A stretch of DNA of 64,000 nucleotides from positions 248,001 to 312,000 of the forward strand of contig JACRJL010000001.1 of assembly GCA_016215445.1 (NCBI GenBank), given 5' to 3'. Both the position numbers and the translations under genes were made by a program. Below the pieces are notes generated by a model. It searched no databases. It was not told the DNA's origin and worked only from the letters and a program-made list of their open reading frames with translations. Each line of letters opens with the position of its first letter. Position 1 is the stretch's first letter. Origin of the DNA: Candidatus Roizmanbacteria bacterium (GTDB taxonomy: Bacteria > Patescibacteriota > Microgenomatia > UBA1406 > GWC2-37-13). Below are positions 10,763 through 13,982 of this stretch, piece by piece.

Positions 10763-11452
10763 TTAAAAGGCAAACACTTTTTCCCACTTTCCCTCAGAAA
10801 TGATGTCTTCGAGATTGTGGAAACTTTTATTGATACGATGATCAGTTAACCTGTTTTGGGGAAAGTTATAGGTTCTGATTTTTTCCGCTCTGTCTCCAAC
10901 CCCGACGTCCTTGACATATGAATTAGCTATGCCTCTTTTCTTTTCTTCCTCGAGTTGAAATAGTTTACCCATAAGTAAGTCATAGGCTATTTTCCGGTTC
11001 GCTTCCTGGTAGCGTTCACGGGAAGCTGTTGTGACTATCCCGGTGGGTTTGTGAGTGAGGCGGACAGCTGTCGAAACCTTATTGACATTCTGTCCGCCGT
11101 GGCCTCCCGACCTGTAAAACTGCCAATCTAGTTCGGACGGATTGATTCTTATATCTGATTTGATTATTTGAGGAAGAACGACAATAATGCAGGTTGAAGT
11201 ATGGATTCTACCTTTTCTTTCGGTTTCAGGGATTCTCTGTACTCTGTGAACTCCTGTTTCATTTTTAAAATATTTAAAAGTTCCTTCGCCGTTGACTTTT
11301 ATTGTATTGTCGTCCAGATAAACAACTTTAAAAAGTTTTTTTTGGGCAAAACGGATGTATGAGGTTAGCAACTCATCCATCCAGAGTTTTGATTCGTCTC
11401 CCCCAACTCCGGGAAGGGCTTCGATTATGGCGGCATTGGGATTTATTAGCAT
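10763..11452 (-). CDS. prfA: Peptide chain release factor 1 lacking domain 1
   Basis: 229 residues against about 360 in E. coli. It starts at [27 protein letters not shown], equivalent to the beginning of domain 2, so the N-terminal domain is missing. The gene cannot be extended because hisS ends 24 bases upstream. Codon recognition: [14 protein letters not shown] matches the RF1 P-x-T and IHTS pattern (P-E-T here, P-A-T in E. coli), and not the SPF motif of RF2. The GGQ loop is [11 protein letters not shown] and the late [14 protein letters not shown] is typical RF1. It should read UAA and UAG. Confidence 0.88.
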
Positions 11453-11488
11453 ATGAGACTTATCAGTCTAATGAGCTTAATTAGATTT
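11453..11488. repeat. 9-bp-period repeat between prfA and hisS
   Basis: Four consecutive 9-mers, ATGAGACTT, ATCAGTCTA, ATGAGCTTA and ATTAGATTT, fill the gap immediately upstream of the prfA start codon and enter the hisS 3' end. AGACT/AGTCT pairs give it palindromic character. The arrangement (array abutting the start codon) is the same as at gyrA. Confidence 0.55.
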
Positions 11489-12694
11489 AAGAAATGCTAA
11501 CAATTTTTCTTGATTTAGCTCTTTTTGATCTCCTGTTTTCATATCTTTTATCTTTACGACATTCTTTTCTGCCTCTTCAGGGCCGATTATTATTACAAAA
11601 GGAATTCCCTTTTTATTGGCATATTTGAGCTGTTTGTCTAGTTTTATACTTGAATTCGAATAAAGATCTGTATTGATATAGTTTGTTCTTAAAAAATTAG
11701 TAATTTTTTGGGATTCCTTAATTAAATCTTGGTTAAAAATAGTGACAAGAACCTTAGTTTTTGTTTTTATTGCCGGAAACAGTCCGAATTCGTCCATAGC
11801 CAAAACTGTTCTGTCAAAACCTATAGCAAAACCAACGGCAGGAACGTTTCGGTTGCTAAATCTAGACACTAGGCTGTCAAATCTTTCGCAACCGGCCAAT
11901 GAACCGGCGTCAAATTCGGAAACAACAATTTCCCAAATAGTTCCGGTCGAATAAGAAAAAGACCGGGCTAAAGTTGGTTTAAAGATATAGTTTTCTTTTA
12001 AACCATAATTGTCAAGGTATTTAAAAATTGTTTTTAGTTCTTCATTTGGTTTCGCCGAAGCGACCTTATCCAAAAGTTTCTGAGCGTCATTTGCAGAATA
12101 GCCTTTTTTTACAAGTTCATTGACGACTCCTTCTTTGCCGATTTTTTCCAGTTTGTCAATGGCGACAATAGCTTTATAAGGAATATCTTTATACAATGCT
12201 CTGTCATTAATGATCGCCAGCGGTTTTTTGAAACCAAGGTTTTTAAAAATATTGATGGTTAAAGCAATAGTTTCTCCGTCGGCGGTTCTGTTGTCTACTC
12301 CGAAAATGTCTGCGTCGCACTGCAGGAATTCTCTGTATCGTCCTTTTTGCGGTTTTTCTGCGCGCCATACGGTTTGGATTTGATACCTTTTGAAAGGAAA
12401 CGTGATTTTATCGGAATACTGAGCTATGAATCGGCAGGTCGGGACAGTTTGATCGTATCTTAAAGCGACTTTTCTTCCTCCTGTGTCCTCGAATTTGTAA
12501 AAAAGTTTTTCATCTTCGCCAATATTTCCTGTAAATACCTCTAGATACTCGATTGCTGGAGTTTCTATCGGTTCAAACCCGTAAAGTTCAAAGGTTCTCC
12601 TAATGACATCAATAACATATTGACGCTTAATCGCCTCTTCGGGTAAAAAATCTCGGAAACCTTTTAGAATCTGTGGTTCAATTTTTTTGTCCAT
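11477..12694 (-). CDS. hisS: Histidyl-tRNA synthetase
   Basis: 405 residues, class II. Early GFRDFLPEEAIKR, motif 2 ALRYDQTVPTCRF and motif 3 GFAIGFDRTVLAM are visible, with a C-terminal anticodon-binding domain (VLVTIFNQDLIKESQKI). Motif 2 is of the LRYDxTVP type seen in archaeal and eukaryotic enzymes and in some bacteria, rather than LRPEGT. It charges tRNA-His and heads hisS-prfA-rpmE. Expression is apparently controlled by the His-codon attenuator directly upstream; a second, weaker -10 (TATAAT, 12703-12708) eight bases before the ATG could give an attenuator-independent leaderless message. Confidence 0.96.
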   Translation of the reverse strand: MDKKIEPQILKGFRDFLPEEAIKRQYVIDVIRRTFELYGFEPIETPAIEYLEVFTGNIGEDEKLFYKFEDTGGRKVALRYDQTVPTCRFIAQYSDKITFPFKRYQIQTVWRAEKPQKGRYREFLQCDADIFGVDNRTADGETIALTINIFKNLGFKKPLAIINDRALYKDIPYKAIVAIDKLEKIGKEGVVNELVKKGYSANDAQKLLDKVASAKPNEELKTIFKYLDNYGLKENYIFKPTLARSFSYSTGTIWEIVVSEFDAGSLAGCERFDSLVSRFSNRNVPAVGFAIGFDRTVLAMDEFGLFPAIKTKTKVLVTIFNQDLIKESQKITNFLRTNYINTDLYSNSSIKLDKQLKYANKKGIPFVIIIGPEEAEKNVVKIKDMKTGDQKELNQEKLLAFLKSN

Positions 12695-12724: not shown

Positions 12725-12748
12725 TAAAAAATCCCTCCTTGCGGAGGG
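12725..12748 (-). terminator. Intrinsic terminator of the hisS attenuator (segments 3:4)
   Basis: On the minus strand CCCTCC (12743-12748), loop GCAA, GGAGGG (12733-12738), then A and six T. A perfect 6-bp GC-rich stem with a tetraloop and T-tract is a strong rho-independent terminator. It lies between the leader peptide and hisS, so transcription must read through it to reach the gene. Confidence 0.85.
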
Positions 12749-12793
12749 CAGATAATTTTATTTTACAAATTACATTACCCTCCGTTAGGAAGG
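12733..12793 (-). promoter_or_regulatory. His-dependent transcription attenuator of hisS
   Basis: Four segments in order: 1 CCTTCC (12788-12793), 2 GGAGGG (12778-12783), 3 CCCTCC (12743-12748), 4 GGAGGG (12733-12738). 1:2 pairs with one G-U, 2:3 and 3:4 pair perfectly. A ribosome stalled on the His codons (12793-12801) covers segment 1 and leaves 2 free to pair with 3, preventing the 3:4 terminator. A ribosome that reaches the stop codon covers 2 and lets 3:4 form. This is the logic of the classical his and trp leaders. Confidence 0.85.
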
Positions 12794-12831
12794 TGGTGAT
12801 GAACTATATCTTTTGAATTAGTTATTTTCAT
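12775..12831 (-). CDS. Leader peptide of the hisS attenuator
   Basis: 18 codons: MKITNSKDIVHHHLPNGG. Three consecutive His codons (CAT CAC CAC, 12793-12801) end exactly where RNA segment 1 begins, and the last two sense codons plus stop (GGA GGG TAA) lie on segment 2. The ATG is seven bases after a perfect extended -10, so the message is probably leaderless. The peptide itself likely has no function beyond sensing charged tRNA-His. Confidence 0.85.
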   Translation of the reverse strand: MKITNSKDIVHHHLPNGG

Positions 12832-12838
12832 AAGGAAT

Positions 12839-12847
12839 ATTATATCA
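12839..12847 (-). promoter_or_regulatory. Extended -10 promoter of the hisS leader
   Basis: TGATATAAT on the minus strand, directly after the htrA stop codon; no good -35 is visible (TCTCGA at the expected place), which an extended -10 can tolerate. The predicted start point coincides with the ATG of the leader peptide. Confidence 0.7.
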
Positions 12848-12848
12848 T

Positions 12849-13982
12849 TTATTGGGCTGATTCGAGAATGATATTAAAAGATTTAATTTCTTTGTTCCTC
12901 CAAACTTTCAAAATGACTGTTTGGCCGACTTTTTTGTCCGCGATTAATTTTGTCAAAGTTTGGTCGTCGTTTCCGGTGATCTTTTTGCTATTAAACTCAA
13001 TGATGATGTCGTCTGTTTCCAGTCCGGCTTTTTGGGCAGGTGAACCAGCGATGACGTCGACAACATAAGCGCCTTCAACTACTTCATTTAAGATGGCGGT
13101 TTGCTTATCAATCATTTTATATCTGACGCCTATATATGGTCTATCGAAACTGGCGCCGTTTTTATTAAAATTGTCAATCAGATTTTTAACGACATTAACC
13201 GGAAGAGCAAAGCCTATATTCTGACCTGATTCGGCGATCGCAGCATTAACTCCGATAACTTCGCCGCGGGAGTTTAAAAGTGGTCCACCGGAATTTCCAG
13301 GATTTATTGCCGCATCTGTCTGAATGACGTTATCCAATTTTTCAACAAATCCTTCAAATGGACTTCCGGCTGTAATACCTCTACCCAAGCCGGAAATAAT
13401 ACCAGAAGTTACAGTATTCGTAAATTCGCCTAGAGGAGTTCCAATAGCCACAACTAATTGACCGAGCTTGAGATTGTTAGAGTTGCCTAGTTTCAAAGGT
13501 TTAATTCCTTTGGCGTTGATTTTTAAAATAGCCAGGTCGTTTAACGGGTCGCGGTAGATTTTTTCGACATTATGTTTTTTCTTGTCATTAGTCAAAACTT
13601 GATAAGTGGCTTCATTATCGGAGACGACGTGTTTATTAGTGATGATTAGTCCGTTGGCGCTGACGATAAAACCGCTACCGATGTTTTGTTCGACTTTTTG
13701 TTGCTTACCGGGAATCTGTCTGAACGGACTGAATGGATCAAACGGATTAATTTCAATGATATTACTTGATGAAGTTGCTTTGTTTATGATGACTGTGACA
13801 ACAGATGGTAAAGATTCTTCAACGACTTTTGTGACGACTGATTCTTCGTAGACAACAGTCTGTTTTTCAATAGATTGATCTCGTAGATTAGGGATTTTAG
13901 GAGCATTAGGAAAAAGATTAAATTTTTGTCCGACTAGAGCGACAATTATGAGAGATCCTAAAAGAAAGAGAAATTTTTTCAT
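12849..13982 (-). CDS. HtrA/DegP-like serine protease with one PDZ domain
   Basis: 377 residues. An N-terminal hydrophobic segment (about residues 4-20) anchors or exports the protein. Trypsin-like triad: His in IITNKHVVSD, Asp in DPLNDLAILKI, Ser in NPGNSGGPLL. One PDZ domain follows (about 280-370, AGSPAQKAGLETDDIIIEF). It should degrade or refold misfolded proteins outside the membrane. It is 13 bases downstream of the Ctp protease gene, giving a two-protease envelope quality unit. Confidence 0.95.
   Translation of the reverse strand: MKKFLFLLGSLIIVALVGQKFNLFPNAPKIPNLRDQSIEKQTVVYEESVVTKVVEESLPSVVTVIINKATSSSNIIEINPFDPFSPFRQIPGKQQKVEQNIGSGFIVSANGLIITNKHVVSDNEATYQVLTNDKKKHNVEKIYRDPLNDLAILKINAKGIKPLKLGNSNNLKLGQLVVAIGTPLGEFTNTVTSGIISGLGRGITAGSPFEGFVEKLDNVIQTDAAINPGNSGGPLLNSRGEVIGVNAAIAESGQNIGFALPVNVVKNLIDNFNKNGASFDRPYIGVRYKMIDKQTAILNEVVEGAYVVDVIAGSPAQKAGLETDDIIIEFNSKKITGNDDQTLTKLIADKKVGQTVILKVWRNKEIKSFNIILESAQ

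Follow-up and report, generated by a model that had tools for sequence, protein, structure and literature searches.

A probable leaderless histidine attenuator upstream of hisS in the Microgenomatia, and its threonine counterpart upstream of thrS

In attenuation of the enterobacterial hisL/trpL kind, a leader peptide with a run of cognate codons, translated from a Shine-Dalgarno sequence, has its stop codon near segment 2 of an RNA with mutually exclusive 1:2, 2:3 and 3:4 pairings and an intrinsic terminator, and the genes controlled form biosynthetic operons. Leader-peptide attenuation of a synthetase gene is exemplified by Escherichia coli pheM-pheST, in which the cognate amino acid is Phe, the lineage is Gammaproteobacteria and the leader has a ribosome-binding site. 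Patescibacteria have very small genomes and are often assumed to be poor in regulation. Naville and Gautheret (2010; PMC2965389) predicted His leader peptides upstream of hisZ and of the Bacillus hisS paralogue hisS*, and leader peptides, mostly leaderless and with that of thrS among the leaderless ones, lie upstream of leuS, trpS, alaS and thrS in Streptomyces lividans (PMC8079986). Classical attenuators have been described for Streptomyces trpS and leuS. No paper on leader-peptide attenuation in Patescibacteria was found in a literature search that left out most subscription journals.

The locus analysed here lies in the window, the whole 64,000-nt stretch under study (contig 2, bases 248001-312000; genome size 0.94 Mb; class Microgenomatia, Patescibacteria), whose minus strand carries, in this order, genes for a CtpA-type and an HtrA-type protease, the leader, hisS, a peptide-chain release factor gene and rpmE-, rplJ- and rplL-like genes; all features given below are on that strand. 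The class assignment follows from hisS, whose closest named relatives are Microgenomates, Gottesmanbacteria, Woesebacteria and Roizmanbacteria. The gene upstream of the leader (12849..13982) encodes an HtrA-type trypsin-PDZ protease by domain search, and the gene in this place differs between relatives. P1, an extended -10 (TG A TATAAT; TGATATAAT; 12839..12847), starts 1 nt past the htrA stop codon and is separated by 7 nt from the leader ATG at 12831, and the leader transcript is predicted to start at about 12832-12831, that is, leaderless. The leader ORF, MKITNSKDIVHHHLPNGG* (12775..12831; asterisk, stop), has 18 codons and a TAA stop at 12777-12775, a plan shared with 24 other leaders, and includes the regulatory codons CAT CAC CAC (His-His-His; 12793..12801). 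Four RNA segments accompany it: segment 1, ACCTTCC (12788..12794; terminator scan, pairing test and covariation), which pairs with segment 2; segment 2, GGAGGGT (12777..12783; pairing test and covariation), which overlaps the leader stop codon and pairs with segment 1 or 3; segment 3, CCCTCC (12743..12748; terminator scan and covariation), which pairs with segment 2 as antiterminator or with segment 4 as terminator; and segment 4, GGAGGG (12738-12733), which with an A and T6 (12731-12726) makes up the 3' arm and U-tract of an intrinsic terminator (12726..12738; terminator scan). The terminator, CCCTCC-GCAA-GGAGGG-A-T6, has a hairpin of -11.1 kcal/mol and lies ahead of hisS (11477..12694, start at 12694), which encodes histidyl-tRNA synthetase (TIGR00442, 356 bits against a cut-off of 287; PF13393). 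Past the terminator, 8 nt 5' of the hisS ATG, is a second TATAAT, P2 (12703..12708). An earlier sequence-only reading had described the extended -10, the 18-codon leader with its three His codons, the 1:2, 2:3 and 3:4 segments and the T-tract terminator before hisS, and these proved correct to the base. The release factor gene past hisS (10763-11452, minus strand) encodes just 229 residues with PCRF and RF-1 domains, its N-terminal part apparently missing.

The leader has the hallmarks of the trp/his type: a cognate codon run, exclusive 2:3 and 3:4 pairings plus 1:2, a U-tract terminator and, as a matter of geometry only, the spacing. The sequence-only reading had the His codons ending at segment 1 and the stop codon on segment 2, and this geometry holds, with 8 nt between the last His codon and segment 2. 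From its sequence and comparison with relatives, we consider it very likely that the element works by ribosome-mediated attenuation of transcription, with the charging of tRNA-His as the signal and hisS as the gene adjusted. P1 would give a leaderless RNA whose first codon opens the leader peptide. With His-tRNA in short supply, the ribosome would stall on the three His codons and cover segment 1, so that 2:3 would pair, the terminator would be blocked and the polymerase would continue into hisS; with His-tRNA plentiful, the ribosome would reach the stop codon on segment 2, the 3:4 terminator would form and the transcript would end at about 12727. If the leader were not translated at all, 1:2 and 3:4 would form and transcription would likewise end, while P2 would provide a basal hisS supply that bypasses attenuation. 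Both stalling and switching are predicted from the geometry of the parts.

Codon run, stop codon position, exclusive pairings and intrinsic terminator are common to this leader and hisL/trpL, from which it differs in preceding a synthetase gene, in being leaderless, in belonging to a genome without hisD and in matching no Rfam leader model. With pheM-pheST it shares attenuation of a synthetase gene via a leader peptide, but not the amino acid (Phe), the lineage (Gammaproteobacteria) or the ribosome-binding site on the leader. The hisS* and hisZ leaders likewise combine a short ORF carrying a His codon run with a premature terminator, and stand ahead of histidyl-tRNA synthetase homologues, but they belong to Bacilli, in which hisS proper is under a T-box, and the sections of that report drawn on here mention no leaderless start and show no sequence link (PMC2965389). 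The S. lividans leaders, too, are short ORFs that stand ahead of synthetase genes and are enriched in the cognate residue; they are, however, actinobacterial, do not include hisS, and at thrS have two Thr and no clear terminator (PMC8079986), whereas the Microgenomatia leaders show a clear four-segment architecture and, past the terminator, a likely second leaderless promoter, which is unusual. The rarity claimed for a leaderless synthetase attenuator thus stands for the phylum, in which it is new, but not more broadly, given the leaderless leaders on Streptomyces synthetase genes. Leader-peptide attenuation itself is already known; what is new is the phylum, the pairing of hisS with thrS, and, in relatives, the insertion of tRNA-His and racemase genes ahead of hisS but behind the leader.

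The folding energy of the 108-nt leader RNA, -34.6 kcal/mol, is 5.8 sd lower than that of dinucleotide shuffles, and both hairpins were recovered on the minus strand by the terminator scan. Pairing in this leader was better than in shuffles for 2:3 (p=0.002) as well as 1:2 (p=0.007). The equilibrium fold of the full-length RNA favours 2:3 nested inside 1:4, and the switch must therefore be kinetic.

A good terminator occurs within 330 nt of hisS in 22 of 184 hisS upstream regions from the class Microgenomatia, and in 13 of these 22 a short ORF containing His-His lies 38-90 nt 5' of the terminator, as against a mean of 0.275 and a maximum of 3 in 200 when the sequence before the terminators was shuffled. 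Doublets of other amino acids in the same regions were found in no region for seven amino acids and in one or two for nine; Ile and Leu, both common residues, had 7 each, and Gly 9, largely segment 2 itself (GGA GGG). Together with named genomes, with leaders set back by one more gene and with the hits of a pattern search blind to hisS, these upstream regions gave 25 leaders before hisS or a gene-hisS pair from at least six families (f1, f7, f9, f10, f29 and f30, plus two named Woesebacteria/Microgenomates records), among them MRINRVKNNGHHRLPFGG, MKNQLIDYNHHRSTFGG, MKIFCLSNGVHHFLPNGG, MQYKTTKNTESHHHPLSRGL, MTSLSLHHHCQNRE, MNTLMSTHHHHHQ and MSNNSTQPVAAHHHHA*. Another genome of the window's own family (G371) has the same leader as Roizmanbacteria RIFCSPLOWO2_01_FULL_37_16, and in one leader of the set (L083) the His codons are scattered rather than adjacent. 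The parts come in the same order in all 25: segment 2 begins 8-23 nt past the final His codon, and the stop codon of most leaders falls at segment 2 or just 5' of it. In 22, a -10 matching at 5/6 positions or better is found close to the leader start, in most cases 6-9 nt 5' of the ATG. Distribution is patchy, also inside the genus; since some leaders are separated from hisS by an additional gene, counts of presence based on 700 bases are minima, and counts of absence are maxima. At one hisS (L179, genome G035), CATCACCAC with a weaker hairpin and no start codon is likely a remnant.

The upstream gene varies among relatives while leader and hisS remain together. This bears on another possible reading, in which the terminator does no more than stop transcription arriving from htrA and shield P2, the sole promoter of hisS, and the leader ORF is a coincidence. 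The terminator does stand between htrA and hisS, and P2 is a perfect leaderless -10 that occurs with and without the attenuator; an insulator, however, has no need of a leaderless -10, His codons or segments 1 and 2, yet these recur beside different upstream genes, His doublets are far above chance, 1:2 and 2:3 covary, and leaders at thrS carry Thr, not His, codons. We judge insulation alone to be improbable.

At p<0.05, the 2:3 pairing outperformed shuffles in 15 of the 25 leaders but not in the other 10, and 1:2 did so in 16; combined Fisher values of about 1e-16 for each are overstated, since related sequences are not independent. Covariation was computed on the 13 alignable leaders, using slid columns as controls. 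For 2:3, 94.5% of cells were paired and covariation was 0.222 versus at most 0.077 when slid; for 1:2 plus 3:4, the values were 92.3% and 0.301 versus at most 0.132, and both alternative structures lose covariation when slid by a single column. The comparison across relatives that had been proposed as a check showed that they keep the leaderless -10, the His run, three covarying pairings, the terminator and the link to hisS, so that the refuting condition set beforehand, loss of both His run and pairing, does not hold. Peptide sequence outside the His run is not conserved among the 25 leaders, which argues against the leader acting via nascent-peptide arrest, a trans-acting peptide or a small RNA rather than through tRNA-His charging, as does the switch of amino acid to Thr at thrS. 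Termination would leave a short leaderless mRNA, comparable to Sinorhizobium meliloti rnTrpL (PMC7298713), but we hold this mode of action to be very unlikely.

The link to hisS also emerged from a search blind to the downstream gene, in which the pattern TATAAT-N4-9-ATG-...-His-His-His was run over 281 genomes with hisS unspecified and 30 loci were read. Short in-frame HHH ORFs (13-18 residues) were found at 6 of the 30, the window included, and all six lie ahead of hisS, four of them immediately and the remaining two separated from it by other genes; other matches were out of frame, not short, or outside the 30 loci read.

Control by direct tRNA sensing is known for the same gene: hisS T-boxes, in Firmicutes and some Microgenomatia, share with the leader the gene, the tRNA-charging signal and the choice between termination and read-through, but there tRNA binds the RNA directly and no peptide is translated. 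T-box-like RNAs below the Rfam cut-off were seen before hisS in other Microgenomatia families (L113:166-364 and L135:257-444) and elsewhere in the window's genome (G000:C3:437657-437871). Control of hisS by T-box-like RNAs or by attenuators within one class would amount to a sensor switch like that reported for Bacillus. That the leader is itself a T-box, or another RNA that binds tRNA or a ligand directly, has next to no probability in our estimation, for although RNAs resembling T-boxes exist in these genomes and before hisS in other Microgenomatia, the leader is only about 108 nt in all, half of it coding. T-box RF00230 gave no match at the leader at E<5, and the antiterminator motif TGGNACCGCG is absent from the sequence. 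Nor did the Rfam histidine operon leader match the site at the gathering threshold or at E<5, and Rfam searched at gathering and permissive thresholds gave nothing credible there.

The leader bears the marks of a leaderless mRNA, with a -10 box 7 nt before the start codon, going by the predicted start, and no Shine-Dalgarno. TGNTATAAT-N4-9-ATG occurs at 43 sites in the genome versus 6 for the reversed pattern, and 28 of the 30 such loci read open directly into ordinary genes; leaderless transcripts therefore seem common in this genome. Its 16S tail is intact, yet a Shine-Dalgarno is missing from most start sites in the genome, and the read-through hisS mRNA, which also has none, is usual in this respect. 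A P2-type box was found at 10 of 13 hisS with an adjacent attenuator and at 12 of 13 same-genus hisS without an adjacent one; among 822 control ATGs, a 6/6 box occurred at 10 and a 5/6 box at 52. Judging by these frequencies, hisS probably has a basal leaderless promoter, P2, with an attenuated P1 added on top. As P2 lies past the terminator, attenuation can act on no more than a share of hisS transcription, and as such a box also occurs at hisS genes that have no adjacent attenuator, overall hisS levels may depend little on this control. The proposed control of hisS is thus upheld in that the attenuator precedes hisS, but it needs qualifying, just a part being attenuable through P2 (12708-12703), which the sequence-only reading had missed. 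The attenuator points to coupled transcription-translation, starting from leaderless mRNAs, as an amino-acid sensor in Patescibacteria.

Among the leaderless starts of this genome was also MKKEIKFTTTTIS*, a Thr-rich leader upstream of thrS (L304; G000:C2, about 320.9-320.7 kb, outside the window), followed by a terminator, CCCTCC-CAAGA-GGAGGG-T7, and then thrS (TIGR00418, 637 bits). Thr leaders such as MNLMTTTTTNSC, MNTRNCFTTTTTSCP and MIKQNIVSSVSTTTTPQ* precede thrS in 10 of 29 relatives, from two families; at the thrS of G004 (L406/L321) the terminator is kept and the Thr leader is missing, likely a remnant. That codon and gene agree twice over, His with hisS and Thr with thrS, argues most strongly for a charging sensor, and together with comparison and covariation it supports the attenuator interpretation. 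No leader-terminator unit was found at about 85 loci of other synthetase genes in a scan that covered asp/asn/lys, val/ile/leu, pro/ser/gly and trp/tyr, with phe, ala, arg, cys, met and glu outside it. The 25 His and 11 Thr leaders provide a comparative test bed for the rules of leaderless attenuation.

In some relatives other genes lie between the leader and hisS. A tRNA-His (GTG) gene does so at L025:1378-1450 and L480:1314-1388, and tRNA and synthetase would there be attenuated together. DapF-like protein genes are at L491:1640-2467 (L007/L491), L006:1287-2111, L012:680-1477 and L480:435-1124; in NCBIfam their products match nothing but two histidine racemases, CntK and HisR, and with E-values of 1e-15 to 2e-19 and scores of 58-70 bits, far short of the curated cut-offs, they do not qualify as members by this test. 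The best PDB match of one (P0003, G007 operon) is histidine racemase 9cr1 (E 8.6e-11), with DAP epimerases next, and for another (P0004) DAP epimerases rank slightly higher. By family assignment, a second racemase type, of the Asp/Glu family, occupies the position of the DapF-like gene directly before hisS at L011:769-1485, with a His leader 5' of it, and at L014:122-838, where no His leader was found. These nearby racemase genes are a pointer to histidine-linked functions, and D-histidine salvage under charging control would be a reasonable guess. The window's own genome lacks hisD, which is consistent with imported histidine and compatible with the import envisaged earlier. More tentatively, and with the balance somewhat against it, the Microgenomatia may have a histidine-supply regulon read by tRNA-His charging, with the attenuator on hisS and, in several relatives, on tRNA-His and a racemase turning environmental D-histidine into L-histidine, in cells mostly unable to make histidine, with a Thr twin on thrS and other synthetases left alone or under T-boxes.

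Elsewhere on the contig, at G000:C2:220307-220463 (minus strand), a short ORF, MNIGNVRNNNNFS*, stands right behind a TATAAT and may be an Asn-run leader or a chance occurrence.
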